Shown here: positions 28,080-63,885 of the stretch, in pieces
Numbering within the stretch: the first letter of the stretch is position 1
Layout of the letters: each line of letters opens with the position of its first letter
Assembly (NCBI GenBank): GCA_028284485.1
Contig: JANQRQ010000269.1
Span: 1-64,000 of the forward strand
DNA from: Planctomycetaceae bacterium
GTDB taxonomy: Bacteria > Planctomycetota > Planctomycetia > Planctomycetales > Planctomycetaceae
Direction: 5' to 3'
Length of the DNA stretch: 64,000 bases
Made by a program: the position numbers and the translations under genes
Notes under the pieces: generated by a model
The model's database searches: none
What the model was told of the DNA's origin: nothing
What the model saw: only the letters and a program-made list of their open reading frames with translations

Positions 28080-28179
28080 CCCGTGTTACGCGGATTCGCG
28101 GGCGCGACAATCGCGTGTTGGTCAATGGTTGCTGGCCCCGGTTAGCCAGAAACTCCCACGAAAAAGGTAAATCTCGCTA
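28080..28179 (+). repeat. Three-hairpin dispersed repeat, copy E
   Basis: Hairpin 1 is CCGTGTTACGCGG (28081-28093), hairpin 2 is CGCGACAATCGCG (28103-28115) and hairpin 3 is CTGGC...GCCAG (28132-28149). Hairpin 1 differs in sequence from other copies but keeps its pairing. The right end overlaps the TAG stop (28177-28179) of the minus-strand SGNH gene. Confidence 0.8.
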
Positions 28180-29706
28180 TTGATCAGAGTCGGCCGAGTT
28201 GCGAGTTTTGGGCTTTTCTGCGAGCGGAGGGCCATCGGCGCGGCCGGAAGTCCAGCTGTCTAAAACATCCAGCATTCTCCGTCCGTGGAGGTAATACATG
28301 TTGTCCAGCGAAAGCCGGTGTTGTTCAAATGCCAGATCACGCTTTTCCTGCCAATCTCCTTCGGGATGAAAATAGTCGAGACGAATAAACTCATCTGCGA
28401 TAGCATTGGCGATGATTTGGTGCCCGCGTATCGACGGGTGAATGTGATCGACCAAGAGGAATTCCCCAGCAATACGCTGGGGGCTAAGATTGGTTAACAG
28501 AGACTGAGCATCGATGATTGGCGTTTTCGTTTCGTGCGCGACTCGAACCAATGCCTCCTCCATGGTCGACAGAATTCGTAGCGGGCAGACATCGAAATCC
28601 CGGGCTAACAAAAATTCCTTTCTAGCCATGTCGTAGTCGTTGAGTGATTGATAGCACTGACCAAGTTCGAAATGCGTAGCGGCATATTGGTTGTCGAGCT
28701 TCAATGCCTGCTTCAGAGTTGCAATTGATTTTGGCAAGTCTGTTGCATAAGTTTCGCGAGCAGAATAGATCAGCATTTGCCACTTGTCTAATTCTTCTGC
28801 CGAGAGGTCGTGGCGGTGTTCCGATTTGAACGGTGGGCAATCCGACAGATTCGAGGTCGGTTTGATCAGGACGACGGGGACACCCGCTGCTTCGGCGATG
28901 CGAATCATCCGCCGCACATTGAATTCGTAATGCTGGGCGACATCGGCACGCCATTGCTCGTCCCAGTGATAGGCATCGAGCCCGCCACGGTAGTCGAGCC
29001 AAGCATCGACCTCGGCAGGAAGTTCGGGGCGATTCTGCAAATACTGTGTTTCGACCTTGCGGATTTGATCAATTCCCTGGCGTGCGAGTGTGTATGTTCT
29101 CGTGCGCGACAATAGCCCCTCAACGAACGCGACGCCGTCTGGTCCGTTCTTGATGTGGTCGTACGTGCGGTCCTCTAAAAATTCATTGTGGCCCGTGCAG
29201 AGAATGAACAGATCGGGCTCGTAAGCCAGGCACTCCTGCAGAATCGGAACCAGGCGATAACTGGCATACGAAATCCCGCCACAGTTAACGACTTCCCAGT
29301 TTTTCGAGGTATCGCCTTCATTAAGGGAGATTTTTAGCCAGGTCGTAAATGACGTCTCTTTGGAAAACGGCCGCCCTTGCACCGTCGAACCGCCGAAGCT
29401 GAAGACTCGAAACGTGTTTTCCGCCTTCTGTATGGGAAATGAATCCGGTGCAAAGAATTGTCGTCGTGCTTTGGGAATCTCGTAGTTCGTACCGGTATCG
29501 TCAGGGACGAAAAGCGGGTAAACGGCACTAAACCCGACGAATGGGTCTTGGTAGTCGTCAGGATGTCCCCAATCGAGCGCGATACAAGCCAATTCGAATA
29601 CCAGGAATGGCGAAAGCGCCAGCAGCACGGCGAGCATCCGAAATCGACGCAGTCGAGACTTCGTCGCAACAGCCTGCGAATCGTGTTTTTGGTTGCCGGT
29701 GGCCAA
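28177..29706 (-). CDS. Membrane-anchored SGNH-hydrolase-like protein with TPR insert
   Basis: The 509-residue protein has an N-terminal hydrophobic helix (LAVLLALSPFLVFELACIAL). It carries the SGNH motifs: FSFGGSTVQG (nucleophile Ser), HNEF with its Asn, and a C-terminal DHIHPSIRGH (Asp and His). A TPR-like segment (ATLKQALKLDNQYAATHFELGQCYQSLNDYDMARKEFLLARD) sits between the SGNH blocks, an unusual insertion. It may act on acetyl groups of an extracellular polymer. The TTG start follows GGGGGATT. Its stop codon lies in a repeat copy. Confidence 0.85.
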   Translation of the reverse strand: MATGNQKHDSQAVATKSRLRRFRMLAVLLALSPFLVFELACIALDWGHPDDYQDPFVGFSAVYPLFVPDDTGTNYEIPKARRQFFAPDSFPIQKAENTFRVFSFGGSTVQGRPFSKETSFTTWLKISLNEGDTSKNWEVVNCGGISYASYRLVPILQECLAYEPDLFILCTGHNEFLEDRTYDHIKNGPDGVAFVEGLLSRTRTYTLARQGIDQIRKVETQYLQNRPELPAEVDAWLDYRGGLDAYHWDEQWRADVAQHYEFNVRRMIRIAEAAGVPVVLIKPTSNLSDCPPFKSEHRHDLSAEELDKWQMLIYSARETYATDLPKSIATLKQALKLDNQYAATHFELGQCYQSLNDYDMARKEFLLARDFDVCPLRILSTMEEALVRVAHETKTPIIDAQSLLTNLSPQRIAGEFLLVDHIHPSIRGHQIIANAIADEFIRLDYFHPEGDWQEKRDLAFEQHRLSLDNMYYLHGRRMLDVLDSWTSGRADGPPLAEKPKTRNSADSDQ

Positions 29707-30114
29707 ACCCAGAATCCCCCGAAATCCCGCTTAGCGACATGGAATCGATGTGGCTCTGCTCAATGCCTTCGGTCTGCTCGATTTCTGATGGCCATCGACA
29801 ATGGCAACAACGGATTCGGAAAAACTCCATGCCGACGGTCCATGGTCAGTTTCCCTAAGAATCTACTGGAATAACCGAGCAATCTCCTTCTATGATATCC
29901 CAAAGGCCAAGGCGACGATAGCATTGGATTGGCTGCCAACCACTCCTTCGCGTTGGTGCAGGCGTTCCAGCACACCACGACTGACGACGCTTGTCGCGAG
30001 TCTTTATGGATACGCGGCTACACAAGGCGTTGCCGTCGAGGTTGATCGCAAACACAGTGATTCAAGCACTTGTCTGATTAATACCATAAATGTCCGGCGA
30101 CAGGAGGAATTGGC
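29707..30114. other. Divergent intergenic region before the Tat protein gene
   Basis: The 408 bases lie between two outward-facing genes. Only the AGGAGG of the Tat gene (near 30100-30105) is clear. No promoter, repeat or small gene is convincing. Confidence 0.4.
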
Positions 30115-31650
30115 ATGGCGACTCGGAGCACGCGGCGACAATTCATACAGACAGCAACGACCGGTGGAACACTGTTGGGGATCGGCGGACTTTCGTTTCT
30201 ATCTCGACTTCCGCGAGTATCGGCCGATGAGGCTCGGCTGGACCCGAAGCTTGTCCAATTCCAGCCGGAAATCGAACCACTCGTGCGGCTAATCGAAGAG
30301 ACGCCACGCAATAAGGTATTGGAGAAGATCGCCAGTCAGATTCATGCGGGCACTTCGTATCGCGAAATCTTGGGCGCATTGCTGCTCGCCGGCGTGCGAA
30401 ATGTGCAGCCGCGTCCTTCTGTGGGATTCAAATTTCACGCGGTGCTGGTCGTCAACTCAGCTCATTTGGCGAGTTTGAATTCGCCCGAGAGTGATCGGTG
30501 GCTGCCGATCTTTTGGGCGATCGATAATTTTAAGTCGTCACAAGCTGACGAAAGTAAGAACAGTGGCTGGCGAATGAAGCCGGTCGAAGAAGACCGAGTT
30601 CCCTCGGCAACCCATGCGCGTCAAGCGTTTATCGAGGCGATGGAGAATTGGGACCAAGAAGCAGTCGACGCCGCTGTTGCAGGATTGGCTCGACACGCAG
30701 GTGCGAATGAGATCTTCGAGTTGTTCTATCGATTTGGTTCGCGCGATTATCGTTCGATTGGGCACAAGGCAATTTTTGTGGCCAATAGCTGCCGGACGTT
30801 GCAGTCCATCGGCTGGAGGTATGCCGAGCCAGTGCTGCGGTCCCTCGCGTATGCGCTCGTGAATCACACGGGCGAGCCGAATCCCGCGAAAAGCGATTTG
30901 GGACCAGATCATTCCTGGCGAGTGAACCAGGAACTCGCGGCAGAGATTCCGAAAAACTGGTTGGAGGGAAAGCTAAGCGAATCGGCAACCAATGACTTGT
31001 TGGCGACATTGCGCAGCGGAACCAACGACGATGCGTCGGCCAAAGCGGCAGAACTACTGGCTGCAGGAGTCTCGCCGCAATCCGTGTGGGATGCAGTATT
31101 TGTCGGGGCCGGAGAATTGCTGATGCGCCAGCCGGGCATCATCGGTTTGCATTCGCTAACGACGGCCAATGCCATTCATTACGCCTTTCAGGCGAGTGGG
31201 AACGACAAAACACGCCGCTTCCTGTTATTGCAGGCATGCTCGTTCCTGCCGATGTTTCAGCAGTCGGCCAAAGGTCGAGGCAAACTTCAAGATCGGACCG
31301 TCGACGATTTGAGTGCCGTGGCTCTTCAACGCGGCGACGCTACCGGCGCACCTGCCGAGATATTTGCTGACGTGAGCGGCAATCGTATGCGTGCGGCTGG
31401 TAAAATCCGCGCCTACCTCGATTCCGGCGGGGATCCTCGCGAGCTAATCAATACCGCTCAACGACTGATCTTCCTGAAAGGACGCGATTCCCACGATTAC
31501 AAGTTCAGTTCGGCTGTGTTGGAAGACTACTACCACGTCAGCCCGCAATGGCGCGATCGTTTCCTGGCCACGAGTGTCTTCAACTTGAAAGGATCGGGCG
31601 ACCGAGACAGTGGCGTCGTCGAGCGGACGCGGGCAGCCTTGGATTCATAA
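30115..31650 (+). CDS. Tat-exported protein with domain shared with the Rieske C-terminus
   Basis: A Tat signal (STRRQFIQTA) with strong AGGAGG starts this 511-residue, mainly helical protein of no named family I can recognise. Segments ~170-250 and ~320-380 align by eye with residues 219-300 and 351-424 of the Rieske protein at 1746-3320. Examples are AFIEAMENWDQEA vs AFTEAIEAEDRET, the shared GH (here H217), EPVLRSLAYALV vs EPFLLPALARHL, and LHSLTTANAI vs LHFTHGITFANAV. This suggests a common domain with conserved His residues, possibly metal or heme related. No catalytic motif is evident. Confidence 0.75.
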   Translation: MATRSTRRQFIQTATTGGTLLGIGGLSFLSRLPRVSADEARLDPKLVQFQPEIEPLVRLIEETPRNKVLEKIASQIHAGTSYREILGALLLAGVRNVQPRPSVGFKFHAVLVVNSAHLASLNSPESDRWLPIFWAIDNFKSSQADESKNSGWRMKPVEEDRVPSATHARQAFIEAMENWDQEAVDAAVAGLARHAGANEIFELFYRFGSRDYRSIGHKAIFVANSCRTLQSIGWRYAEPVLRSLAYALVNHTGEPNPAKSDLGPDHSWRVNQELAAEIPKNWLEGKLSESATNDLLATLRSGTNDDASAKAAELLAAGVSPQSVWDAVFVGAGELLMRQPGIIGLHSLTTANAIHYAFQASGNDKTRRFLLLQACSFLPMFQQSAKGRGKLQDRTVDDLSAVALQRGDATGAPAEIFADVSGNRMRAAGKIRAYLDSGGDPRELINTAQRLIFLKGRDSHDYKFSSAVLEDYYHVSPQWRDRFLATSVFNLKGSGDRDSGVVERTRAALDS

Positions 31651-31712
31651 GCACGAAGCGCAAGCTCTCACAATTGGCAGCCACGCGTCAGTGCGCGTGA
31701 TGAGCAGAACAA

Positions 31713-31817
31713 TACAGCGTATTACGCTGACTTGTGGCCGCGACAATCGCGTTTTGTTCTATGATAGCTGGTTCCCACGAGCCAGAATCGCCCACGAGAA
31801 AGAGTCAACCGCTCTAG
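31713..31817 (+). repeat. Three-hairpin dispersed repeat, copy A
   Basis: The hairpins are CAGCGTATTACGCTG (31715-31729), CGCGACAATCGCG (31739-31751) and CTGGTTCCCACGAGCCAG (31768-31785). The right end, with TAG in reverse, lies two bases from the stop of the minus-strand rhodanese gene. With copy B it forms a direct repeat bracketing that gene. Confidence 0.88.
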
Positions 31818-31818
31818 G

Positions 31819-32208
31819 TTAAGCATCTTCAGATGGGCTCGCGGTAGGATATCCCGCTTCCCTCCAGCCTCGCCAACCGCCATCCATCGAGATCACGTTG
31901 GTGTATCCCATGGCCTGCAGGTTGACGGCGGCCAAAGCCGATCGGTAACCACCACCACAGTACAGGACGATTTCGGCATCGCGATCGGGGATCGCTTGCT
32001 CGATATCTCGTTCGATAATCCCTTTGGATAGGTGGGTCGAATCGGGGATGTGTCCTGCCGCGAATTCCGAGGCCTCTCGCACATCGATGAGACAAAACGA
32101 ATCACCGCGGTCGATACGTGCTTTAACGTCATCGACCGTGCATTCCCGAATCTTTGCTCGGGCTTCGTCGACGACTTTTAGGAATCCTGGAGAGTGATTT
32201 TTCGCCAT
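31819..32208 (-). CDS. Rhodanese-domain protein
   Basis: This 129-residue single rhodanese domain has the ARDVR-like IDVREASEFAAGHIP segment and the active-site loop CGGGYRS with Cys84. It may transfer sulfur or act as a persulfide carrier; the acceptor is unknown. It is short, with no signal peptide. The gene is bracketed on both sides by copies of the same ~100-bp repeat in the same orientation, 514 bases apart, so it may have moved as a unit or be prone to loss by recombination. Confidence 0.92.
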   Translation of the reverse strand: MAKNHSPGFLKVVDEARAKIRECTVDDVKARIDRGDSFCLIDVREASEFAAGHIPDSTHLSKGIIERDIEQAIPDRDAEIVLYCGGGYRSALAAVNLQAMGYTNVISMDGGWRGWREAGYPTASPSEDA

Positions 32209-32226
32209 TGATCTCGGGATGATTTC

Positions 32227-32330
32227 TACAGAGTATTACGCTGACTTGTGGTCGCGACAATCGCGTTTAGTTCTATGATAGCCGGCTCCCACGAGCCAGA
32301 AACGCCCACAAGAAAAAGTCAACCGCTCAA
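32227..32330 (+). repeat. Three-hairpin dispersed repeat, copy B
   Basis: The hairpins are at 32229-32243 (one mismatch in hairpin 1), 32253-32265 (CGCGACAATCGCG) and 32282-32299. It is about 90 percent like copy A over its length by eye. It lies between the rhodanese start and the stop of the nucleotide-sugar dehydrogenase gene. Confidence 0.88.
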
Positions 32331-32351
32331 ACTGGTTCTCAGTCGCGCCGA

Positions 32352-33671
32352 TCAGGCTTTGCGAATTTTTTCTCTCATTGTCGAGACATTCTTCGTTGCG
32401 TTTCGTGTGTCGACGACAAGCTTGGCGTGTTTCACGATTTCGTCGTAATCATAAGCGGAATGATCGGTCGCAATGAGGATGCAATCTTGCGCCGCAATAA
32501 ACTCAGGCGTTAAATCTTGGCTTGTCAAATCGGGAACATTGTGGTGCCGCATTTTCGGCAGCTTGGGAATATGCGGATCGTTGTAGGTTAATTCGGCTCC
32601 CCGTTCTCGCAGCATGTCCATCAAGACAAACGAAGGGCTCTCGCGTGGATCGTCGACGTCTTTCTTGTAGGCCATGCCCAGCAGACAAATCTTGCTGCCC
32701 TTCACCGGCTTGCCGACTTCGTTGAGAAAGTCTGCGACGCGCGAGATGACGTAGCTCGGCATGCTGGAATTAACTTCACCGGCTAATTCGATGAATCGCG
32801 TCGAAAGTCCCTGTTTGCGCGCGAGCCACGTGAGGTAGAACGGGTCGATCGGAATGCAGTGTCCTCCGAGCCCCGGACCGGGATAAAACGCTTGAAAACC
32901 GAAAGGTTTGGTTTTGGCGGCTTCCACAACGTCCCAGACGTCGATGCCCATTCGGTCGAACAGCATTTTGAGCTCATTGACCATGGCAATATTGACCGCG
33001 CGGTAAGTGTTCTCCAGAATCTTGCACGCTTCGGCGACTTCGGGGCTCGCCACAGGAATCACTTTCACGATGGCATGGCCGTAAAGCGCTTCGGCCAGTT
33101 TGCAACTCGTCTCATCAGTACCGCCGACAACTTTCGGTATCCCTGCAGCGGAGTAATCGGGGTTGCCCGGATCTTCCCGCTCTGGACTGTAGGCCAAAAA
33201 GAAATCTTCACCGGACTTCAAGCCGCTTTGGCTGAGAATGGGAAGCAAAACATCTCGTGTCGTCGTGGGATACGTCGTGCTTTCCAAAATTACCAATTGA
33301 CCGGGGCGCAAAACCTTGGCGATTGCCTCGGCCGTCAGCGTGACATATTTCAAATCCGGGTCGCGACTGTCGGATAAGGGGGTTGGCACGCAAATCAGCA
33401 AACAATCCGCCTCGGACAGGCGGGACATATCCGTCGTTGGTTCAAGTTGGCCTTCACGAATCCAGGAGGCAACGGCTGCGGAATCGATGTGTTTGATGTA
33501 GCTTTTTCCGGCAGTAAGCATGTCGACCTTTTCTTGGTCGACGTCGAATCCCATCGTGCGAAAACCCGATGAAACGAATGCGCTGATTAAGGGAAGTCCG
33601 ACGTAGCCGAGTCCGATAATCCCGATTCTGGCCGACTTGTCCTCAATCGCCTGTTGCAACTGCTGAGCCAT
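32352..33671 (-). CDS. Nucleotide-sugar dehydrogenase (UDP-GlcNAc/ManNAc 6-dehydrogenase-like)
   Basis: The 439-residue protein has the NAD-binding IGIIGLGYVGLPL at the N-terminus, STTYPTTT, and the catalytic GGHCIPIDP with Cys272. The C-terminal domain (GSKICLLGMAYKKDVDDPRESPS) completes the fold. Its sequence style (SPEREDPGN, NIAMVNELKMLFDRMGIDVWDVV) fits the WbpA/WecC group making UDP-uronic acids for surface polysaccharide, rather than simple UDP-glucose dehydrogenases. A good AAGGA precedes the ATG. Confidence 0.92.
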   Translation of the reverse strand: MAQQLQQAIEDKSARIGIIGLGYVGLPLISAFVSSGFRTMGFDVDQEKVDMLTAGKSYIKHIDSAAVASWIREGQLEPTTDMSRLSEADCLLICVPTPLSDSRDPDLKYVTLTAEAIAKVLRPGQLVILESTTYPTTTRDVLLPILSQSGLKSGEDFFLAYSPEREDPGNPDYSAAGIPKVVGGTDETSCKLAEALYGHAIVKVIPVASPEVAEACKILENTYRAVNIAMVNELKMLFDRMGIDVWDVVEAAKTKPFGFQAFYPGPGLGGHCIPIDPFYLTWLARKQGLSTRFIELAGEVNSSMPSYVISRVADFLNEVGKPVKGSKICLLGMAYKKDVDDPRESPSFVLMDMLRERGAELTYNDPHIPKLPKMRHHNVPDLTSQDLTPEFIAAQDCILIATDHSAYDYDEIVKHAKLVVDTRNATKNVSTMREKIRKA

Positions 33672-33849
33672 TTGTCGTCAATCCTTGATAGAAGCTGTTT
33701 TAACCCGCCATTCCGATGCAGGTCCGTCGTATGCGGACGAAATCCCCTGGAGTACGTGGCGTCCCCAGAGTCGACATGCGGCCTATCATAGCGATCGATG
33801 ATTTTATTGCGAGAGAGACTGCCGCCGCACCGTCAATCACCGGGGAAAA

Positions 33850-34458
33850 TCATTCGTCGACCGTTTCCCATCCATCGAGTCGGACTTTGTGATTCTGGAG
33901 TATTTGTCGAATCGATCGGAGCCGCTGAGAATGCTGGGCTTCATCGAGGACCGGTCTCAATCCAGACGTGGGCAGGGCCTGATCTAACTCTACCCAGCTA
34001 TGACAGCCGGCGTATTCGGCGATATCGTCGATTTCTAACGGTTTGTCCAGGGCGTAGGCGCGAATGACCATTAATGCCAGACCGGCGCGGCGATAGCGAA
34101 ACCGTTGTTCGACCGTCTTTTGCGACAGAATATGTGTCTCTGCCAAGGCGGAAAGGGCAGCGGGTTCGTCAAGCCAAGCCACGTCCTCGACCTCGATATA
34201 GACGTTGAGTGGAACGATGCCTTCAGCTGGAATTTGTGATTGAACTCGACTTAATAGCGGTCTTGCGTCGTCGACGAGTTCGCCCGGATCCTGGTGAAAC
34301 CGCGTCGGAAACAACCAAAACTCCGCATGATCGCAACGGAACCGGCCGCCCCGTTCACGCAGTCCCCCTTTGCGCAGCAACAGACTTTGGCAGCCTTCGG
34401 CAATCGCTGCACAGACGACGGCCCATTCCTTTAAGGCATGACGGTTAGCTGTGTGCAT
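33850..34458 (-). CDS. DUF1802 family protein
   Basis: From the ATG at 34458 the product has 202 residues. ALKEWAVVCAAIAEGCQSLLLRKGGLRE, then EFWLFPTRFHQ, are the hallmarks of DUF1802. The function is unknown. It is last in a run with the YeiH-like transporter and a small membrane protein, with only 27 bases from the latter. The TTG at 34470 is an alternative start. Confidence 0.82.
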   Translation of the reverse strand: MHTANRHALKEWAVVCAAIAEGCQSLLLRKGGLRERGGRFRCDHAEFWLFPTRFHQDPGELVDDARPLLSRVQSQIPAEGIVPLNVYIEVEDVAWLDEPAALSALAETHILSQKTVEQRFRYRRAGLALMVIRAYALDKPLEIDDIAEYAGCHSWVELDQALPTSGLRPVLDEAQHSQRLRSIRQILQNHKVRLDGWETVDE

Positions 34459-34485
34459 TCGTCGCTTCAAAGATTCGTGAATCGG

Positions 34486-34791
34486 TCAATGCCGGTTTGA
34501 TGGATGCTTCGGGATCCATAAGGATCGTGGTCGCTTTCGGTGATAGGCATCGAAGCGCTCAACGACTTCCCCTGTCACCTCCAGGTCGGTGTAGAACATG
34601 GCCGCTGGATCGATTCCACGCGATTCCAATCGTTGTAAACGCTCTTGAATCTGTGGCCGTTTTGAAACGGCCGGCAAGACGACCAGCCAGCAGATCGCAA
34701 GGGCGATGCAAACAGTCGACAACATGCACCAGCCCCGAAAACGGGACGTTCCGCCAAGCTTCAGAATACGATTGTTCGAAGAGACCACCAC
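34486..34791 (-). CDS. Small single-span membrane protein
   Basis: The 101-residue product starts with GTG five bases after the YeiH stop, suggesting translational coupling. One membrane segment is clear (GWCMLSTVCIALAICWLVVLPAV, residues ~20-42). The rest is a basic soluble tail containing ERLQRLESRGIDPAAMF. The family is not recognised. Its position between a transporter and DUF1802 suggests a shared transcript. Confidence 0.65.
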   Translation of the reverse strand: MVVSSNNRILKLGGTSRFRGWCMLSTVCIALAICWLVVLPAVSKRPQIQERLQRLESRGIDPAAMFYTDLEVTGEVVERFDAYHRKRPRSLWIPKHPSNRH

Positions 34792-34796
34792 GATCG

Positions 34797-36257
34797 CTAT
34801 TGTTGCAGTGCCTGTTGCACTTGCTCCCTAAAGAGGACTTCAAACATTAGCCACGCCATCGTCAACGTCAGCAGCAAGTTAAACGATTGCCCAACGATGT
34901 AAAGTACCAACGGTTTGCCGCCCTGCATCTGTTTGCCGAGTTCGCGAAAATTGGTTTCCAGACCGATACAAACGAACGCCAGGCAGAAAAACCAACCACG
35001 GAATACCTTTGTATCGGCGGTGACGACAGGAACAATGTCTTCCCCGCGAGGAAGAAATTCTGCCACGAGAGAAAACACAGCCGAAGCTGCGACAAATCCG
35101 AGCACAAATTTCGGGAATCGGTACCAGATTTCCATGGCGTTCGGGCGAGTCGAGTCACTGCCCGGCTCGACGACGAGGACCCAATACAACGCGACACAAA
35201 ATGCCGTCACTCCAATCAGGATGTTTTGGATCATCTTGATGGTCGTGGCGACCTGCAGGGCGTCGTCGCCCAGAAACTCTCCCGCAGCGGCCACAGCTCC
35301 CGTCGAGTCGATTGTGCCTCCCATCCAGGCTCCACCGAGGATTTCACTCATCCCCGTGTTTTCGATAATCGCCGGCATCACAACCATCATGACGACGGTA
35401 AAAGTCAGCGACATTCCAATCGCTGCCGATAGTTCTTCTTTCTTGGCTTTGCAGGCGGCGGCGGTTGCGATGGCAGCGGAGACCCCGCAAACGGACATGT
35501 CTGCCGAAATCACCATGTTGAACGACTTGGATTGCATTTTCAGGATCTTCTGGCCGAACGCGTATGTCCCGATCAGAACAATCGGCGTCACAATCCAGGC
35601 CACACAAACACCAGGCAATCCAAGGATCACCAATCTGCCAATAAGGACTTCCGCTCCCAGAATGACCAGGCCGGTTTTGATATAAAACTCGGTGAGAACG
35701 GCGGGGCGGGCAAAACTTGGCGTGCCGATCGTATTGCTAATCAGCAACCCCAGCCCCAAAGCCCACAGGGCGTACTCCAAGTTGTAAGCCTTGATGGTCG
35801 CTTGCCCGGTCAGAACATAGGCGACGGTAGCCAGTAGGAAGACAAAAGCGTAGCCGGGCGCGAATGCTGCGAATGATCGCCCCATGACGGCATTCCCGAT
35901 ACCGAAACAAACTAGCCCGACAACGAAAACGCCCAAGATTCCGCCGACAAGGCTCGCTTTGTCGGGTGGAACAAATGCATGTTTGGGATTCGATTCCCAA
36001 GAGCCCGGCTTGGCAAGCCAACCCTTAAGAGGGCTACTGATGCTGGTGCCGCCTGATTCGGAACTGTCTGCAGCGGCATCGGGCAGTGTCGACAACACGG
36101 CAATCAAACAGACTGCCAGTAACGTCGATCCGATCCAAATGGCCCACCAGTCTTCGGACTTCAATAGGCCTGGGGAGTTCGACGAATTATCTGGGGAGCC
36201 ATTTTGCTCGGTGTGTTCAGGGTTAACACCAGGTGAATCGCCAGAGTTGTCTTGCAC
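34797..36257 (-). CDS. YeiH-family transporter (putative sulfate exporter family)
   Basis: This 486-residue protein has about ten membrane helices. It shows the YeiH family signatures [31 protein letters not shown] and [15 protein letters not shown] polar N-terminal tail of ~30 residues and a short periplasmic-type insert (residues ~70-95) are extra to the core. Family members have been linked to sulfate or other anion export; the substrate here is unknown. It leads an operon with a small membrane protein and DUF1802. Confidence 0.88.
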
Positions 36258-36938
36258 GGCGAGAAGCCTCTTCGACTACAAGGATTGTCAACCAGCGTCG
36301 GTCACGCTGCATTCCTTCAATGAGGAAGCACATCGGTTAGGAATCATCGGAAATCTCCCGATCGTCCAGCACGCGACACGACTAAAAACATCACTAGGCT
36401 GACGCTCAGTGGAAGAGATTGCAACCAAACAGGTCGACAGTGAATCTAAGATGGTTGTCGAACAGGCGAGGCCGTGCCCAGAATTCCAACCACTCCGAAA
36501 GCAAGATTAAAATTGGCTCGCTTGCGCGAGTATGCCATCAGAATCATTCATCAAACGAGCGGTGATACTCAGATCAAGCGAGGCGAACATCCTGATGAGC
36601 CGCGCTGGACGTACCGCCTTGAACAATGCCCACATCGGTGCGACCAAGGGAATCACCACCCATCCACGAGCGGCCGTCACGGCGAAATGTTGAGGAAAGT
36701 TCAGACTCGTGTAAGAACTTGACAGCCAAGAGTCACATCGAATCGCGAGGTTCGACGGTTGTTCCAACGGCAGCACTAATTCTATTTCTATCTAGAAAAT
36801 GCGTATTCGGAGAATCGATCATGTCCGAATAATGTCCTTTGGTAGCAATGGGGACGCCTGTTGCTTTGTACAGATTGCAAGTTGTTCGCCCGTTGCGAAG
36901 TGGACACGAAATCGACAATTACGATTTCGCACAAACTA

Positions 36939-37040
36939 CCGCGTACTAAACTGACTCGTGGCCGCGACAATTGCGTTTTGTTCTATGATAGCTGGCTCCC
37001 GCGAGCCAGAATCACCCACATCAAGAAATCATCCGCTTGA
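36939..37040 (+). repeat. Three-hairpin dispersed repeat, copy C
   Basis: Hairpin 2 is CGCGACAATTGCG (36963-36975), keeping its pairing through a G-U wobble. Hairpin 3 is CTGGCTCCCGCGAGCCAG (36992-37009). Hairpin 1 is degraded. The copy stands in a gene-poor region. Confidence 0.82.
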
Positions 37041-37276
37041 GAACTCACAAAGGACGTAGAGGTTAGAAGGTGGCTTCGCAATTGCCGCGTCGTATTCGGC
37101 CCAAGATTTGCGTGGAGGAGTTGGTCGGGACAATTCGGCCTTACCATCGCATCTCTCACAGGCGGAATGGTATACGGATTCTCGGATCAAGAGCGGTTTC
37201 AGTTCGAACAATTTGAGAAATCGTTCAGGCCCAATGATTCAAATCCCCGATTGACTTCCATTCATTCGGGATGACT

Positions 37277-37285
37277 TGCTAGAAT
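37277..37285 (+). promoter_or_regulatory. Possible extended -10 promoter for the small acidic gene
   Basis: TGCTAGAAT gives the extended TG and -10 TAGAAT (37280-37285). A start near 37292 would leave a ~95-base leader containing a small hairpin with stems ACCCC and GGGGT. Confidence 0.4.
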
Positions 37286-37387
37286 CCCGACGACGTTACG
37301 AAACAAGTATGGGAGGAGCCCTGACCCCTATCGTGGGGTACTGACACGTACGAGAACGAGCGCGACGAGAACAAAAGGAGGTGTTCT

Positions 37388-37735
37388 GTGTCCAACATCA
37401 GGCTTAAAGGCCGATGCGAGTCGTTCGTAATGGCCGTCGACTTCTGGGAAGACTTATTGGCCTGGGCCATCGAAGCTGGATGGGAACCGGAACGGGCGCC
37501 CGATTTCTACCGTTCTGAAACTGGTATCGAAGTTTCAGCCGACGATGCTGACAATCTGGCCGACGCCATGGAGCACATCGCAGGCGATTTTGCGTTGACC
37601 GAAACGCAAGTCCCCGAAAAGTTTCTGCGGGAACTTGTCGATGGATTGCGGAATCTTACTCGGTTTTTCAAGAACGGTGAATTTCATATCAACGACGTTC
37701 CAGCCGGTTATGTTCCGGGGTCGTCCTTGACTTGA
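37388..37735 (+). CDS. Small acidic protein of unknown function
   Basis: The GTG at 37388 is preceded by AAAGGAGGT, a near-perfect ribosome binding site, so this is a real, strongly translated gene. The 115-residue product is acidic and helical (FWEDLLAWAIEAGWEPERAPDFYRS, DDADNLADAMEHIAGDF) without membrane segments. I do not recognise the family. It could be a regulator or an immunity-type protein, but nothing in the sequence decides this. The YjbQ gene follows after 96 bases. Confidence 0.78.
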   Translation: MSNIRLKGRCESFVMAVDFWEDLLAWAIEAGWEPERAPDFYRSETGIEVSADDADNLADAMEHIAGDFALTETQVPEKFLRELVDGLRNLTRFFKNGEFHINDVPAGYVPGSSLT

Positions 37736-37831
37736 AACACCTTCAAACAACGCGGCTGATCCCGTCCTACCGATCTTGGGAATGACCGAGACAGGTGGCA
37801 CTTGCTCGCATTACGTAGTTCAGATTCTTGT

Positions 37832-38248: not shown

Positions 38249-38266
38249 CAGCAACAAGAGTATTCC

Positions 38267-54417: not shown

Positions 54418-54595
54418 GTCGAACGGATGAGAGACCCTTCATTCTAGGCCTGCGGATCATTCTTCACCAGAGTGAGCAATCAGCACTCGGCTCGTCCTAT
54501 CACAGCCGCTTCACCGAACTGATTGGTGGAGAATCGTGGGAATTCGGTTTGAAAAGCTCAACAAGGCTTCGATTACAAGCAACGAAAGTTTCCCG

Positions 54596-56404: not shown

Positions 56405-57021
56405 AGGATTGATCGTCCTAATGATTGCTGTCGTCAGTTCGATTCAGAAGCCATGTGGCTATGGAATGAATTCTCATTCGGGATTGTTCGTTCCGGCGAC
56501 CAGTGTCATCCGCCGGCGAACGCAGATCAGTCGAGGTATTGTTGCGATGGAAACTTCCCCTCATCGTACGACCGCAAACAGCTTGGTAGACCGTCAGCGC
56601 AAGGTGTCGTACAGACGGCGCGTCACAATACTACAACATGCAACGGCTCTGGGAATTGACCGGTGTGAAGCGTTGGCCAAGATCTTGGAAGATGCGGCCG
56701 GTCTCGACAATTGGGCAAACTGATTCATGCACGGCAAAAGAATTCAAGTGCCGGCATGCGTTACCGAGTCCGCAAAGCTTAACTGATTTACGTATTCGGA
56801 TCGGGGTAACGATATTCGACCAACGCTACCCGCGCAAACCTCGCGGATCTTCCGAGCCATCTTGAATCTAACGTAGGTGGATTCCGATCGCTGGCGTGCG
56901 GGAACATCGTTCGCAAAGGCGAGGACGTATCCCGCAGACTTGTGGCCTCGATAGCCGCGTTTTGCTTTGAATTGGCTGGCTTGCACGAGCCAGTATCGCC
57001 CACAATAAAAAGCAAACCACT
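56405..57021. other. Intergenic region holding a short frame and repeat copy D
   Basis: The 617 bases contain the possible 58-codon plus-strand frame at 56547-56723 and repeat copy D (56924-57026). No other gene is supported. Confidence 0.45.
56547..56723 (+). CDS. Possible 58-residue small protein
   Basis: The ATG at 56547 has a weak CGAGG nine bases upstream. The product is basic and helical (RRRVTILQHATALGIDRCEALAKILEDAAGLDNWAN), a style seen in small soluble planctomycete proteins. Chance cannot be excluded. Confidence 0.35.
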   Translation: METSPHRTTANSLVDRQRKVSYRRRVTILQHATALGIDRCEALAKILEDAAGLDNWAN

Positions 57022-57026
57022 CTAAG
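56924..57026 (+). repeat. Three-hairpin dispersed repeat, copy D (degraded)
   Basis: Only hairpin 3 is intact: CTGGCTTGCACGAGCCAG (56976-56993). The other two are diverged. The right end overlaps the TAG stop (57022-57024) of the minus-strand DegT gene, so the repeat end supplies that stop. Confidence 0.7.
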
Positions 57027-58260
57027 CAGCTCGGCGATTCGAGTCCCGCGAGAAGTTGGGGTGTCTGACAACATCCGGCTCTTCGGTGGTCGAGTCGGCC
57101 TGAAGAGCATCGGTAATTCCCGCGACAACTCGTTCTTGCTGAGCTGCGGTCAGTTCTGCATAAATCGGCAAAGCGAGAATCTCTTGTGAAGCAAGCTCCG
57201 ATTGCGGGAAATCACCTTCCCGATAACCCAAGTGCTGAAAGCACTCCTGCAGATGCAGCGAAGTCGGGTAGTACACCATGCATCCGATTTCTTGCTGACG
57301 AAGGAAGTTCATGACCTCGTCGCGTCGACCGTGCTTCACTCGGATACAAAATTGGTTGTAGATATGACGGCGACCCGGTGCAACGACCGGTAGCTCAATC
57401 GCGTCGAGTAGCCCTGCAGAGGAAAACAATTTGACGTACTGAGCGGCGTTCTTCTGGCGTGCCTCTGTCCAATCGTCCAAATGAGTGAGCTTGACTTGCA
57501 AGACTGCGGCTTGAAGGGCATCAAGCCGGCTGTTGATTCCAACTTCGATGTGTCGGTATTGCCCTGACTCGCCGTGCACTCGCAAACGACGCAGGCGGGC
57601 GGCAAGTTGTTCGTCGTCGGTGGTGATTAGCCCACCATCTCCGGCGCCGCCCAGGTTCTTTGTTGGAAAAAAGCTGAAGCAGCAAAGCGTTCCCAACACG
57701 CCGGCCCTTCTGCCATGATATTCGGCACCAATGGCTTGGCAGGCGTCTTCGATAATGGGCAACTCGTGGCGGCTGGCGATGCGCCACAGTGGTTCCATTT
57801 CTGCGCATTGCCCAAAAATATGAACGGGCATGATCGCGCGTGTCTTAGAAGTAATGGCGGTTTCAACAGCCGATGGATCGAGGTTGTACGTTTCGGGATC
57901 GATATCGACAAAAACCGGCGTTGCTCCGACTCGGTAGATCGCGCCGGCCGTCGCAAAGAATGTAAACGGACTGGTAATGACTTCATCGCCCGGCTGGATG
58001 TCTAGTGCCATTAATGACAAGACCAACGCATCCGTTCCCGAAGCGCAGCCGATTGCGTGGTGCGCGTCACAGTACCGAGCGATGGCCGCCTCAAATTCGG
58101 CGACCGTTTCTCCGAGAACAAATCTCTGGGACGCAAAAAGCGATTGAACAGCTTCTTCAATTTCGGAAGAAATCTGAGAATGTTGTGCAACAAGATCGAT
58201 GAATGGGACCGGCTCGATGGTTGGTTTTTCGTGAACTGCAGCCGGAATGATCTCAGACAT
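57022..58260 (-). CDS. DegT/DnrJ/EryC1/StrS aminotransferase
   Basis: The start at 58260 (GGAG upstream) gives 412 residues. It shows PLP-enzyme signatures: [26 protein letters not shown], and [10 protein letters not shown] with the PLP Lys201. The family transaminates nucleotide keto-sugars for surface polysaccharide. A long run of minus-strand genes precedes it, with ilvE 268 bases upstream. The stop codon lies in repeat copy D. Confidence 0.93.
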
Positions 58261-58410
58261 TCGTAACTCCAAATGCTCAACCGCTGACTTGCCTGGGAGA
58301 AGGGGGCGTAAATTATGCGCCGATCGGCTTTATGTCAATACGAGGTCCGGGCACGATTAACACTGCGGATTGGCGTTCTTAGAATCAGGGGCGGCTGACT
58401 CGTGGGGGCG

Positions 58411-58499
58411 GCTCTCATTCGGCGGTGAGAGCGACGAGATGGCTTATTGCGAAATTGACGTTGACATGCACAACGCCAAACTGCCCGCTTTCGAGCGGG
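58411..58499 (-). terminator. Paired hairpins between ilvE and degT, possible weak terminator
   Basis: Two perfect hairpins lie here: GCTCTCA/TGAGAGC (58411-58417 and 58426-58432) and CCCGCT/AGCGGG around a 4-base loop (58484-58499). On the minus strand neither is followed by a clear U tract, so termination is uncertain. They may be attenuating or mRNA-protecting structures. Confidence 0.4.
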
Positions 58500-58528
58500 G
58501 CGGGAAGATTTCGCGGATCACGGCAAGA

Positions 58529-59392
58529 TCAGCCGCCGCTTCGCGTCAAATCGCGAAATCGGCTGCGTAAATCTTTGGTGATCGGGCCGGGGACACCCTC
58601 GCCAATCACGCGTCCGTCCAAGCTGACCACGGCGATGACTTCAGCCGCTGTTCCCGTCAGGAAACATTCGTCGGCTGTGTAAATGTCATGCCGCAGAATC
58701 GCCGTCTCCAAGACGGTATGTCCGGCTTCCTTGGCCAACTGAATAGCCGTGTTGCGGGTAATTCCCTCCAGGATGCCGGCTTCGAGCGACGGTGTTTTGA
58801 TCATTCCACGCGTGACGATAAAAATGTTGTCGCCGGTGCACTCGGCCACTTCGCCTTTGTGATTAAGCATCAATGCTTCGACGGTTCCCGCGTCGGTTCC
58901 CTCGATTTTGGCGAGGATGTTGTTCAAGTAATTCAGCGACTTGATTCGCGGGCTGAGTGCCGCTGGATGGTTTCGAATTGTGCTGGATGTGACCAGCTTC
59001 ATGCCCTGTTCGTACACTTCCGGGTCGTACAGAGTGATGGTGTCGGCAATGATGATGATTTGAGGGTTGCTCGTTTTACGTATATCGAGACCGAGCGTGC
59101 CGGCCCCCCGTGTGACCACGAGACGGACATAGCCGTCGTCGATTTGGTTGGCTGCCACTGTTTGTTCGACGGCGGATGCCATGTCGGCCTTCGACATCGG
59201 AATTTCGAGTCGAATGGCATGAGCGCTTTCATAAAGGCGTTCGACGTGTTCGGTGAGCAGGAATACCTTGCCGCCGTAAACACGGATCCCTTCGAACACA
59301 CCATCGCCGTACAGCAATCCATGATCGTAAACGCTGACTTTGGCATCGTCTTTGTCGACGAGCGATCCGTTAATGTAGACCTGCGATGGCAT
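58529..59392 (-). CDS. ilvE: Branched-chain amino acid aminotransferase
   Basis: The 287-residue fold-type IV PLP enzyme has HGLLYGDGVFEGIRVYGGK, the PLP Lys151 in IKSLNYLNNI, and the AECTGDNIFIV and GTAAEVIAV segments. It converts leucine, isoleucine and valine to and from keto acids. D-amino acid aminotransferases share the fold, but the spacing and sequence favour BCAT. It lies downstream of the lolD-like gene by ~100 bases. Confidence 0.9.
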   Translation of the reverse strand: MPSQVYINGSLVDKDDAKVSVYDHGLLYGDGVFEGIRVYGGKVFLLTEHVERLYESAHAIRLEIPMSKADMASAVEQTVAANQIDDGYVRLVVTRGAGTLGLDIRKTSNPQIIIIADTITLYDPEVYEQGMKLVTSSTIRNHPAALSPRIKSLNYLNNILAKIEGTDAGTVEALMLNHKGEVAECTGDNIFIVTRGMIKTPSLEAGILEGITRNTAIQLAKEAGHTVLETAILRHDIYTADECFLTGTAAEVIAVVSLDGRVIGEGVPGPITKDLRSRFRDLTRSGG

Positions 59393-59494
59393 CGGAAGCT
59401 GAATTCAAAAAAAGGTGACACCGGCAGGCAACAGGGCCGGCGAGAGTGGAATCGAGGGAGAAGGCATGAAGACCAGATGTCTCGTCAATGCCGA

Positions 59495-60223
59495 CTAGGC
59501 CGCCTCTTCAAGCACGTCAATTCGTCCTTCGTGGAGTCTGACAATTCGATGCGCCTGTTTCGCAATGGAATCGTCGTGCGTCACCATGATAATAGTCAGA
59601 CTTTCGACCTCGTTCAACTCCGTCAACAGGTCCATAATCTCCTGACCGGTTTGCGAATCGAGATTGCCGGTCGGCTCGTCCGCCAACAGAACTTCCGGTT
59701 TGGCAACCAGTGACCGTGCGATGGCGGCTCGTTGCATCTCTCCGCCGGAAAGTTGCGAGGGACGATGTTTGATGCGGTGTGCCAAGCCGACCTTTTGAAT
59801 GATGTCTTTTGCAAGCCGTCGGTACTCGCGGCGCCGCTTCCAATAGACCCAACTGGGGTGCCGAATCATCAGTGGAGCCAGAACATTCTCCAGGACGGTT
59901 AATTCTGGCAGCAGGTGGTAGAACTGAAAGATGAAACCAAAAACGCGATTTCGGAGTTTGTCGCGCGTGTCGAACGGCAAATTATCGATTCGCTGCCCGT
60001 CGAGAATGACCTCACCGACACTCGGCGAATCGAGCAGTCCCATCAGGTGCAAAAGCGTGCTTTTTCCGGAGCCGGATTGCCCGACGATGGACAGAAATTC
60101 TCCGCGATTGACGCCGATGTCAACGCCCTTGAGGACGGGAACTTCATGTTGGCCGGTGCGGTACGTTTTTTCCAAAGCGACGGCGCGGATATGTTTTCGA
60201 GGCATTTTTATGGTCTCTGCCAT
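59495..60223 (-). CDS. lolD: LolD-type ABC transporter ATPase
   Basis: The 242-residue ATPase has Walker A GQSGSGKST (48-56), signature LSGGE, and Walker B LLADEPTGNLD. It shows the family phrase VFGFIFQFYHLLPELTVLENV. The neighbouring LolC/E-type permease supports a lipoprotein-release role in the inner membrane. A MacB-type exporter is the alternative. The permease gene ends 99 bases upstream in transcription order. Confidence 0.88.
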   Translation of the reverse strand: MAETIKMPRKHIRAVALEKTYRTGQHEVPVLKGVDIGVNRGEFLSIVGQSGSGKSTLLHLMGLLDSPSVGEVILDGQRIDNLPFDTRDKLRNRVFGFIFQFYHLLPELTVLENVLAPLMIRHPSWVYWKRRREYRRLAKDIIQKVGLAHRIKHRPSQLSGGEMQRAAIARSLVAKPEVLLADEPTGNLDSQTGQEIMDLLTELNEVESLTIIMVTHDDSIAKQAHRIVRLHEGRIDVLEEAA

Positions 60224-60322
60224 GGAGTTACCCGACGATTCCTTGCTGAGCGACGGCTGTGATTACATCGAAGGTGTTCAGTTGCCTCACAGTGAGGCAA
60301 ACTTGCCGAGTTCATTCAGAGT

Positions 60323-62002
60323 TTATTCGTATCGCAGTGCTTCGACCGGGTGTAGACGGGCGGCACGCCGGGCTGGAAGAATGCTGGCGAGGACCGCAAT
60401 GGTCATCGCACCAAATGCGACCCAAAGAACCATCATGGGGTTCACTTCGGTTGGGATCTCAGGGAAATAGTAGATTCGTTCGTCGAAAACCTTTCGGCCC
60501 GTTAACCAGGTGAAGAACTCTTCAATTTTGTTGATGTAATGCACGAACAACAGTCCCAAAACGACTCCTACACCGCTCCCGACGATGCCGAGCGCTAGTC
60601 CGTACGACAAAAAGATCGACATCACTCCGTTCGAGCTGGCACCGAGTGCTTTGAGAATGCCGATGTCGCGGGTCTTTTCCACGACAATCATGAAGAAGAT
60701 CGCCAGAATGCCGAACCCGGCCACGGTAATAATGAGGAACAACAAGATGTTCAGAATCGCCGACTCGATATCGACAGCCGCGAGGAGCGGTCCCTGCTTT
60801 TGTTCCCAGGTGCCGACTTCAAACATGCCAGGAGGGAAAACCGACCGCAGCTTTTCGACGACTTCGTCGGAATCAGCATAGTCTTTCAATTTGATCTGAA
60901 TGGTCGTGAACCGACCTTTGCCGGTTTGCGGGTCGATCATCCCCCGCATTTCCTGCAGAAACTCGAGATTGCAGAAGACGAGGTTTTGGTCGTATTCGCT
61001 CATACCGCTGCGAAACACATCGACGATTGTTGCGGGAAAGTGTGTTGTTGCTGGCGGCCGGCCGGCGGTCACCGTGCTGATTTTCACATCGTCGCCAGTC
61101 CGTACCATTTTGATCGTCTTGGGCTCGCCGGTTTCCGGGTCATCCACCATGAATTCGATCAGGCCCGATCCGATGTAGATTCGTCCCGGCATCAATGCTG
61201 TCGGGTCTACCGTTGCTTCTGCCGTGGCATCACCCTGATCGAACAGTTCCCAGGGATCTGCGGTGGGGGCGGTGCCGTCCGCAGTTTTCACTTGGTTTTG
61301 GTCGGCGTCGGCATCTGCAGTTGCGCCGGCCTGGATGATTGCCGGTTGAGGACCGATCGTTGTCGACTCGCTGGGCGTCGTGTTTTGGGAAACGTCGTCA
61401 TCAAATGGGGTCCATCCGTTGTCACGGGCCGACGATTCGTCGCCGGGCACCGATCGGTTGTCATAAGAATTGAAGAACAACTGCCGCCGTGCGACCATTT
61501 CGCGACGATACGCCAACGCTTCGGGAGTCAGTTCCCATCCGGGGGTCTCGTCACGAGATCGTTGCGGTGGTTCTTTCACCTCATTGCCGATCTTGACGCC
61601 GGCAAAACTTTCCAACTGGTCCTTCAGCGGACCAACTTGTGCTTTGCTTTCAGGATGAATTCCGACAATGGTAACTGGCCGATTGATCGGTTCGTTGACA
61701 TATTCAAAGCTCAACAAACCGTAAACTTCCACAGTGGCGGTCATGGCTTCGATTTGGTCGCCGGCGACCTGCCGGGCCAATTTCATGTAATAATCAGCAT
61801 CCGCCTGGCCATCGAGCGTATGAGAATCGATGATGACATCGGCGAGAATTCCATGAATTCGATCCCGCATTTCGCTGCTGAAACCGGACATAACGCTGTT
61901 GACCACGATCATCGTGGCGACGCCCAGCATCACGCTGACAATACTCGCCAGTGCGATATAACGAGTGCGAAGATAACGCAGACAAAGCAGCAGTTTGTAC
62001 AT
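60323..62002 (-). CDS. LolC/LolE-type ABC permease with a large insert
   Basis: From ATG 62002 (AAAGGA upstream) the 559-residue permease has one N-terminal membrane helix (ALASIVSVMLGVATMIVVNSV) and three C-terminal helices (ILNILLFLIITVAGFGILAIFFMIV, VMSIFLSYGLALGIVGSGVGVVLG, MVLWVAFGAMTIAVLASILPA) around a periplasmic domain. An insert of ~100 acidic, Thr/Ala-rich residues (about 170-270) makes it longer than the usual ~400. It likely extracts lipoproteins with the adjacent ATPase. Confidence 0.88.
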   Translation of the reverse strand: MYKLLLCLRYLRTRYIALASIVSVMLGVATMIVVNSVMSGFSSEMRDRIHGILADVIIDSHTLDGQADADYYMKLARQVAGDQIEAMTATVEVYGLLSFEYVNEPINRPVTIVGIHPESKAQVGPLKDQLESFAGVKIGNEVKEPPQRSRDETPGWELTPEALAYRREMVARRQLFFNSYDNRSVPGDESSARDNGWTPFDDDVSQNTTPSESTTIGPQPAIIQAGATADADADQNQVKTADGTAPTADPWELFDQGDATAEATVDPTALMPGRIYIGSGLIEFMVDDPETGEPKTIKMVRTGDDVKISTVTAGRPPATTHFPATIVDVFRSGMSEYDQNLVFCNLEFLQEMRGMIDPQTGKGRFTTIQIKLKDYADSDEVVEKLRSVFPPGMFEVGTWEQKQGPLLAAVDIESAILNILLFLIITVAGFGILAIFFMIVVEKTRDIGILKALGASSNGVMSIFLSYGLALGIVGSGVGVVLGLLFVHYINKIEEFFTWLTGRKVFDERIYYFPEIPTEVNPMMVLWVAFGAMTIAVLASILPARRAARLHPVEALRYE

Positions 62003-62067
62003 TCCGCCAATCCTTTGGCATGAGGGCAAACTTGAATTGTTGGGTCGCGGCCGGTGGCCACGTTTGC

Positions 62068-63546
62068 CTATTGGGTGGGCCCTTCCTGGGTCTCCGGTCG
62101 TAGTAGCGGGAAGAATATCACGTCCCGAATGCTGCGGCTGTTGGTCAGCAACATCACCAATCGGTCGATGCCGATTCCCAGTCCACCGGCTGGTGGCATT
62201 CCGACCTTTAACGCCTGCACGAATTCGTGGTCCATTTTCGCCATCGACTCTTCTTCGGAAAGTCCGGCAAGTTGCGTGCGAAACAGATCCTCTTGCAAAC
62301 GCGGATCATTCAATTCGGTATAGGCATTTGCCAATTCCATCCCTTGAATGAACAACTCGAAACGTTCGGCGATGTTCGGATCATCCTGCTTGCGTTTGGT
62401 CAACGGGCAGATCGATGCTGGGTAATCGATAACAAAGACCGGTCCGGTCAAGTGGTCTTCGACGGTGGCTTCAAAGACCTCGTTGACAACAACGTCGTGG
62501 TGTACGCCCTCTGTTTCAATACCGTGCTGGGCGGCGACACTTTGGACCGCAGTTGCATCGTGCATGTCGCAGCCGGCATGCTCTGCGAATAGCTCAGCGT
62601 ACGTCTTTCGCGGCCAGCGGGGTGTAAAATCGATGGTGGTATCGTCCCATGGCAGTTGAAAACCTTGATCGAGGCTTTTCACCGCATTGACGACGATCGC
62701 TTCCGTCAAATCCATCATGGTTTCGTAGTTGCCGTACGCCTGATAGATTTCGATCATCGTGAATTCAGGATTATGGGTCGCATCAATCCCTTCATTTCGA
62801 AACACCCGACCAATCTCATAGACGCGTTCAATTCCGCCGACCATGAGCCTCTTAAGGTGCAACTCCAGCGCGATGCGCATAAAGAGCTCAATGTCGAGCG
62901 TATTGTGGTGCGTGATGAACGGCCGTGCGGCGGCACCCCCGGCGATGGCATGCAAGACGGGCGTTTCGACTTCAACGAAGCCAGCATCGCGCAGTGTCCC
63001 TCGGACGGAGTCGATTACCTTCGTCCGCTGCAGCATTCGATCCAGAACGCCTTCGTTGTAGATTAAATCGATATACCGCTGGCGGAGCAACATTTCGGTG
63101 TCGCGCGCGCCGTGAAACTTTTCAGGCGGCTGGGCTAGCGATTTGCACAGAATCGTCAGCGATTCCACGAAAATCGTGACCTCGCCTGTGTTGGTGCGTC
63201 GCAATTTCCCGTCGACGCCGACCAGATCTCCCAAATCGAGCGCCGTAATCAGTTCCCATTGTTCTTCCGGCAAGTCGCGGCGCGAGGCCATCAGTTGGAT
63301 GCGGCCGGTCCAATCCTGGATATGAAAAAACTTGAGTTTGCCTTTGTTGTTGCGAAGCATGATCCGGCCGGCGACACGGACCGATTCGCCATCGATGCCC
63401 GACTCGGGCGGGCACATTTCTCGTGCCCGGGTGATGGGGATATGGTTGTCGAATCGCTGTCCCCACGGATCGACACCGAGTGACACGATCTTTTCCAGCT
63501 TTTCCAGCCGGGCTTGTTCGAGACGGTCAGGTTTTTGAGTGGACAT
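62068..63546 (-). CDS. lysS: Lysyl-tRNA synthetase, class II
   Basis: From ATG 63546 the 492-residue enzyme has an OB-fold anticodon domain ([30 protein letters not shown]) and class II catalytic motifs: [20 protein letters not shown] (motif 2) and [16 protein letters not shown] (motif 3). It charges lysine to tRNA-Lys. It heads the minus run of lolC, lolD and ilvE, possibly separate transcripts. No ribosome binding site is obvious. Confidence 0.95.
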
Positions 63547-63708
63547 ACTGTGTGATGTCAAAGCAAGCGGAGAGAGACGCTCCGACCGTAGCCGGATTTC
63601 GACCCCCAATCGGCCGAATCGTTGCCGAATTTGGCGAACAATCCGACTGATCGACTGGTGGTCGAAAAACAGAGCGGACAATGATGGGGAAAACGTAGAT
63701 ATAGGTCA

Positions 63709-63783
63709 ATGGCAATGCTCGGGAAAGTAGGCAAAGCAGGGGGAGTTGCAGCAATCGCTGCCCAATTGCTGCGCTTGGCCTAG
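63709..63783 (+). CDS. Possible 24-residue peptide ending at repeat copy F
   Basis: ATG 63709 opens a short frame, MAMLGKVGKAGGVAAIAAQL and onward, with a hydrophobic Ala/Gly/Leu end; its TAG stop is within the repeat end (63781-63783). It is too short to call with confidence. It is notable because other copies also supply TAG stops. Confidence 0.25.
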   Translation: MAMLGKVGKAGGVAAIAAQLLRLA

Positions 63784-63885
63784 AGCGATTTACTATTTCT
63801 CGTGGTCATTTCTGGCTCTTGGCAACCGGCAATGGTAGTACTAAACGCGATTGTCGCGGCCAGAAGTCAGCGTAATACGCTGTAG
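63779..63885 (-). repeat. Three-hairpin dispersed repeat, copy F (reverse)
   Basis: Read in reverse, the hairpins lie at 63868-63882 (stem CAGCGTA/TACGCTG), 63846-63858 (CGCGA/TCGCG) and 63812-63829 (one mismatch). This copy is close to copies A and B in hairpins 1 and 2. Confidence 0.85.

Follow-up and report, generated by a model that had tools for sequence, protein, structure and literature searches.

A 106-bp repeat of a planctomycete genome is very probably an IS630-type miniature transposon with a bias towards stop codons

The closest described relative of the element reported here is RUP (Repeat Unit of Pneumococcus) of Streptococcus pneumoniae, a 107-bp intergenic sequence that is present in 108 copies, inserts at TA and carries terminal inverted repeats (TIRs) resembling those of IS630-Spn1 (PMC2229807, PMC3049150). 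The Correia (NEMIS) repeats of Neisseria, 107 and 155 bp long, are classed as miniature inverted-repeat transposable elements (MITEs; PMC2229807). BOX elements, again from S. pneumoniae, encode the stop codon of 36 coding sequences, without strong evidence that these are truncated (PMC3049150), and the GTAG repeats of the REP/RAYT class, which are short, palindromic and high in copy number, have families in Planctomycetes too (PMC3733652). Here we describe an intergenic repeat noticed in a 64,000-nucleotide stretch of a Planctomycetaceae bacterium (assembly GCA_028284485.1, contig JANQRQ010000269.1, positions 1 to 64,000 of the forward strand; hereafter, the window). Our analysis indicates that the repeat is very probably a non-autonomous MITE of 106 bp whose ends are recognised in trans by a TA-targeting transposase of the IS630 family. 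It constitutes a new family within a known type of element, of which RUP is the nearest example, and its bias towards stop codons is the point of interest.

The planctomycete element resembles RUP in its near-equal length (106 versus 107 bp), its TA target, its IS630-family-like TIRs and its intergenic location. It differs in phylum and TIR sequence, in being approximately four times as numerous by extrapolation and in that no parent was found in its own genome; furthermore, the accessible description of RUP mentions no positional bias towards stop codons (PMC2229807, PMC3049150). With BOX it shares the supply of stop codons by a repeat, whereas BOX elements are modular and have other end similarities (ISSpn2), and the rebuilding of a stop from TA and G is not described for them in the accessible text (PMC3049150). 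In the accessible parts of the literature on planctomycete MITEs and Fuerstiella repeats, no published description of the element was found. The likeness to Correia repeats, compared by description, is that of short MITE-class repeats. Those repeats also target TA, and their transposase belongs to a different family. The element differs from REP/RAYT systems in that the Y1 transposases of its own genome are not associated with it.

The preliminary description had listed six copies in the window, each composed of three hairpins, and proposed a covariance model. A model built from 31 copies recovered all six and no seventh. Five have plus-strand orientation, and the copy at 63780-63885 is on the minus strand, which had been omitted. 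The repeat is also not confined to these six places, since the family comprises several hundred copies in the genome. A sample of this genome (7.72 Mb, 91% complete), consisting of the window and 39 large-contig tiles (815,302 bases in all), yielded 45 copies, each aligned to model positions 1-106. The 39 copies outside the window (751,302 bases) extrapolate to approximately 400 per 7.72-Mb genome. When up to three mismatches were allowed, the 25-nt left end matched the genome 210 times and a reversed control pattern 0 times, which indicates that the repeat is not due to chance.

The 106-bp consensus is CTACAGCGTATTACGCTGACTTGTGGCCGCGACAATCGCGTTTTGTTCTATGATAGCTGGCTCCCACGAGCCAGAAACGCCCACAAGAAAAAGTAAACCGCTCTAG. 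Its ends are imperfect inverted repeats of approximately 28 bp, and 20 of the 28 consensus bases agree when both are read inward (YTA-n-AGC...TTAC...TGTGG). End-to-end comparison of the consensus places these TIRs at 31712-31739 (left, including hairpin 1) and 31790-31817 (right), both on the plus strand, in the second window copy. Conservation is bounded by YTA and TAR; beyond these borders, the base composition flanking the 45 own-genome copies and 90 copies from other genomes is nearly flat. TA is present at both borders of 26 of the 45 and 61 of the 90 copies, compared with a TA frequency of 0.024 per position across the tiles. The inverted repeats agree at 16-18 of 25-26 positions in four subfamilies, a score equalled by 35-73 of 36,963 control 26-mers, among which MITE ends are themselves included. 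The element is short, lacks a transposase gene and exists as many similar copies with fixed ends, as is characteristic of IS630-family MITEs.

A filled and an empty form of one insertion site could be compared at the end of purH in the genus of an element-rich genome, G040. Only one of eight genomes is filled at this place. In the seven others, the last sense codon of purH has the same position and is CAC or CAT, and a TAA or TAG stop comes next (a Y-TAR site); no element was found within the 150 bases inspected. The G040 gene ends CAC-TAG-AGCAGTTTAC..., and TA recurs at the far border. The bare Y-TAR in seven genomes and the TA at both borders in G040 indicate that a single TA became two. Together with the YTA...TAR borders, this comparison points to insertion of the element at the TA of YTAR sites, where TA would be duplicated. 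The alignment of the G040 PurH protein with a PurH of solved structure extends to the final residue of the latter. A second G040 copy is at the natural end of a gene whose product aligns to the last residue of 3g1z, a 'putative lysyl-tRNA synthetase' that we take to be EpmA, and an own-genome aldehyde dehydrogenase ends within approximately six residues of the C terminus of ALDH2.

Candidate parents of the MITE exist in related bacteria, as PF13358 (DDE_3) was matched above its cut-off in four of eight related genomes tested. A related genome, G042, carries two IS630-family elements of 1032 and 1033 bp (L200 and L203), whose inverted ends begin TAGAGCA(A/G)TTTMC... or similar, each preceded by C or T. 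Three of these four ends match the MITE right ends at loci L136 and L062 at 20-22 of 26 positions and the fourth at 17 of 26, whereas none of 36,963 control TA-26-mers (own-genome MITE copies included) reaches 20. The two open reading frame pieces of L200 match the IS630 transposase model NF033545 with E values of 9.7e-34 (above the cut-off) and 1.2e-11 (below it). A MITE copy (L062) resides in G042 alongside the IS630 elements, so that MITE and possible parent occur there in the same genome. In genome G192 (one contig), a remnant of the same IS630 transposase with 69% identity over 61 amino acids (L240) continues into GTAAACTGCTCTAA, which is a MITE right end. An IS end from G044 (L199) and MITE left ends agree at 16-17 of 26 positions, a level that 12-36 controls also attain, and two weak DDE_3 loci of G042 (L215 and L216) have different ends, TAGGG.... 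Overall, the MITE has ends in common with autonomous IS630 elements, strongly where the right ends belong to related subfamilies and more weakly for the ends of its own genome's copies. A mobile MITE had been among the three guesses of the preliminary description, the others being an ERIC/BOX-like element and an RNA structure at 3' ends, and it is this guess that the inverted-repeat ends, the TA target seen in filled and empty sites and the IS630 elements with like ends have substantiated.

Several observations weigh against assigning the element to IS630. The IS ends match those of own-genome MITEs less well (right ends at 15-18 of 25 positions, left ends at 12-16 of 26), and between 2 and 1,742 controls are as good. 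The own genome, 91% complete, contained 0 matches to PF13358 and 0 to the L203-type protein; DDE_Tnp_1 was also absent from this genome, in searches that covered the IS630, DDE_Tnp_1 and Y1 transposase families. Among 11 genomes of the element group, the L203 protein was matched in four, one match being the 61-amino-acid remnant and another a weak match with a stop codon. The evidence from empty sites, and hence for TA duplication, comes from purH as a single locus, and the far border of the G040 copy has one extra base beside TA. A local search of 139 joined sites returned self and nested matches only. We infer that an IS630-family transposase would have mobilised the MITE, and that the window's genome may have lost it or may carry it in its missing part.

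Further traces of parents were sought as MITE ends lacking a partner. Among 33 matches in 1.34 Mb, with the best partner ends examined for 15, no full-length element bracketed by such ends was recognised, although no gene search was made in the stretches between ends. A 750-bp match that recurs in G192 turned out, by its sequence, to be a group II intron reverse transcriptase; at least six matches occur in G192, and both L235 of this genome and L072 (1900-3100) are presumably such enzymes. A MITE copy directly adjoins an IS630-type gene in G044 (L204, from 1314). It is also odd, given the abundance of the MITE, that 7.7 Mb of its own genome contain 11 Y1 matches yet no DDE_3 or DDE_Tnp_1.

The placement of copies relative to genes revealed an asymmetry between the two ends. 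When the right end is read inward, its first in-frame triplet is TAG or sometimes TAA. In 18 of the 45 own-genome copies, this stop codon is precisely where an open frame of 80 codons or more terminates. The other two frames at the right end give 0 and 1 such cases and the three at the left end 3, 2 and 3. The background at YTAR half-sites outside called genes is 15.1%, or 6.8 expected versus the 18 observed (p=4.4e-5), and raising the cut-off to 120 codons leaves 13 observed versus 3.9 expected (p=8.5e-5). The three left-end stop cases are no excess, nor are they significantly below expectation (p=0.14). With genes called by a home-made open reading frame finder based on codon usage (513 genes in the sample), 13 copies terminate a gene on a TIR stop codon, all 13 via the right end. 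Stop codons make up 127 of 1,049 non-disruptive YTAR sites, whereas 13 of 43 copies are located there (p=0.0013). The same pattern is seen in other genomes, with 23 right-end stop cases among 90 copies versus 7 and 7 in the other frames (left end 9, 10 and 6), and among 23 further high-similarity copies the counts are 8 versus 4 and 2 (left end 3, 1 and 3).

These findings can be understood from the first bases of each end. The right end starts TA-G, so that insertion into a Y-TAR stop codon with this end facing the gene would rebuild TAG and leave the protein unchanged. A copy facing the gene with its left end (TA-C in the own genome) would permit read-through, and right-end-facing copies may for these reasons have been retained over time. 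Copies at stop codons also tend to be older, making up 15 of the 28 copies with less than 0.88 identity and 3 of the 17 with more (Fisher p=0.028), although this test is weak, with two p values (0.046 and 0.028) obtained at cut-points picked after inspection of the data. The commoner occurrence of older copies at stops fits survival over targeting. The stop-codon excess is most simply explained if harmless insertions survive. A stronger proposal, which we put forward tentatively and consider less probable than not, is that the mini-transposon is fitted to stop codons. Such an element would target, or be preferentially kept at, Y-TAR stops in one orientation, where its own TAG would restore the stop, and could in this way multiply into the hundreds with little burden on the host.

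The hairpins themselves appear to have a simpler origin. All three are present in the consensus, although not as separate structures, because the consensus folds as a single unit in which both ends form an outer stem, with CTTGTGG and CCCACAAG paired in its middle and hairpins 2 and 3 lying inside. Three independent hairpins as a functional unit were therefore rejected in favor of this inverted-repeat fold. The hairpins would be by-products of the inverted ends and of inner palindromes inherited from master copies. Selection on the structure, which base changes in two copies had suggested to the preliminary description, was not borne out by covariation. In the 31 copies, two-sided changes of pairs number 4 versus 3.7 in shuffles (267 of 500 shuffles are as high), and paired cells make up 90.7% versus 90.3%, so that the excess of compensatory pairs expected of a structured RNA is lacking. 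If its copy letters follow the order of its list, the two examples were also mislabelled: judged by eye, the CCGTG/CGCGG version of hairpin 1 ascribed to the fifth copy (56920), where this hairpin is mostly unpaired, is in the first (28077), and the hairpin 2 wobble ascribed to the third copy is in the fourth (36936).

Other features of the stems are less uniform. Paired columns vary less than unpaired ones (0.099 versus 0.158), which inverted ends alone might produce. Single changes in the middle stem yield 47 G-U versus 6 A-C, with 29 of the 47 in one pair (22/85) and a remainder of 18 versus 5. The other four helices, with G-U and A-C counts of 24/42, 4/12, 14/18 and 38/31, show no G-U excess. 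RNA selection as an argument from this asymmetry was rejected, since four of the five helices lack it, although this does not account for the remainder of 18 versus 5 in the middle stem. Between subfamilies, by eye, hairpin 1 does covary (pair 4/18 is C-G, A-T or G-C and pair 9/13 is T-A or A-T), although a palindromic protein-binding site could equally account for this.

Three other explanations for the repeat were weighed against a MITE. A domesticated 3'-end module, in which right-end-facing copies are kept because they supply a useful stop codon and a structured 3' untranslated region for mRNA stability or termination, would account for the right-end stop excess in both genome sets, for the greater age of at-stop copies and for the middle-stem G-U surplus and reduced variation of paired columns. 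However, an identical orientation bias is predicted if harmless insertions simply survive, and at-stop copies pair worse in hairpin 1 than the others (79% versus 90% Watson-Crick). The concentration of G-U changes in one pair, the missing covariation, the small excess in the 23 further copies and the lack, by eye, of a T-run terminator in the right-end-facing orientation likewise make such a module improbable. Of the earlier guess of a 3'-end RNA structure, the link to gene 3' ends holds, made by the stop codon that one end supplies, and a conserved RNA fold does not. A structured non-coding RNA family that is not mobile could draw on the same G-U surplus and on the stable fold of the second window copy (z=-3.57). 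Nevertheless, the other five window copies give z values of -1.98 to +0.65, no Rfam model matched the window at its gathering cut-off, and covariation is again absent; these results, with the sharp ends, TA duplication and IS630-like TIRs, render this idea hardly credible.

The remaining candidate is a REP/BIME-like repeat that a tyrosine transposase of the Y1 (RAYT) type would mobilise. In its favor, the own genome has 11 Y1_Tnp matches, one having a copy that abuts its start codon (L185, 1320-2055, G000:C16). This abutment is probably due to chance. Ten of the 11 Y1 loci have no copy within approximately 1.5 kb of flank per locus, and the eleventh has one on one side only, so that the flanking of Y1 genes by repeats is not seen and mobilisation by RAYT was rejected. 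Homologues of the L185 transposase were found in four of nine genomes searched, none in the element-rich G040. The element also has long inverted ends and duplicates TA, which to our knowledge are not REP features, and a RAYT origin is extremely unlikely.

The six window copies illustrate the range of gene contexts in which this MITE is located. Copy A (28077-28180, plus; 77.6 bits with the covariance model) is, together with E, the most diverged, and both are right-end stop-codon cases. The right end of A provides the TAG (28177-28179, minus) of gene 28177-29706 (minus), which encodes a GDSL-like lipase by Pfam. A DegT/DnrJ aminotransferase gene (57022-58272, minus; PF01041) receives its stop codon from the right end of E (56920-57025, plus; 77.4 bits). 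A single base pair separates the end of copy B (31712-31817, plus; 125.5 bits) from the stop codon of a small minus-strand gene (31819-32208), which we take to be rhodanese-like. Copy C (32226-32331, plus; 114.5 bits), in direct orientation relative to B, is 17 bp upstream of this gene and 20 bp past the stop codon of the next (32352-33671, minus). Thus, B and C flank the small gene almost exactly (31712-32331; 1 bp and 17 bp), and a composite unit is possible. Copy D (36936-37041, plus; 86.7 bits) is intergenic between divergent genes, and copy F (63780-63885, minus; 106.4 bits), aligned as its reverse complement, has the opposite orientation.

Copies also occur next to one another elsewhere. 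Copies in tandem, tail to tail or adjacent are present at L122 (1-208), L129 (7758-7964) and L089 (979-1191), and at the L122 and L129 junctions a single TA is common to both copies, as if one had inserted at the TA border of the other. At L117 (3953-4062), the loop of an 11-bp inverted repeat (GGAGTACAGGC/GCCTGTACTCC) holds a copy; this inverted repeat may be a disrupted terminator, and no intact version of it was found in the sequences searched.

The distribution of the family is patchy. An exact-motif scan of public genomes gave at least 80 matches, and all of those listed are metagenome-assembled genomes of planctomycetes (Fuerstiella sp., Planctomycetaceae and Planctomycetota). Within the window's family, the exact left-end motif is present in nine of 170 genomes (own genome included) and four of 58 genera, versus 0 for the control, and in six of the eight genomes of genus g43. 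The covariance model matched three of the 40 nearest genomes, namely the own genome, G020 (16 matches) and G004 (one, E 6.4e-4). Interiors diverge between subfamilies and ends are kept. Two G020 copies at separate loci (L041 and L043) have an internal insert of approximately 34 nt in common, as expected of an element that copies itself. This insert could form a hairpin by itself.

The assignment of this repeat to IS630-type MITEs accounts for a conspicuous intergenic repeat of Fuerstiella-like planctomycetes, which need not be mistaken for an RNA family. If the element is indeed fitted to stop codons, a few per cent of host genes (13 of the 513 called in the sample) would have stop codons and 3' ends made by a transposon. 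The stop-codon pattern also offers a testable case in which the first bases of a transposon end may decide whether an insertion survives in a gene-dense genome.

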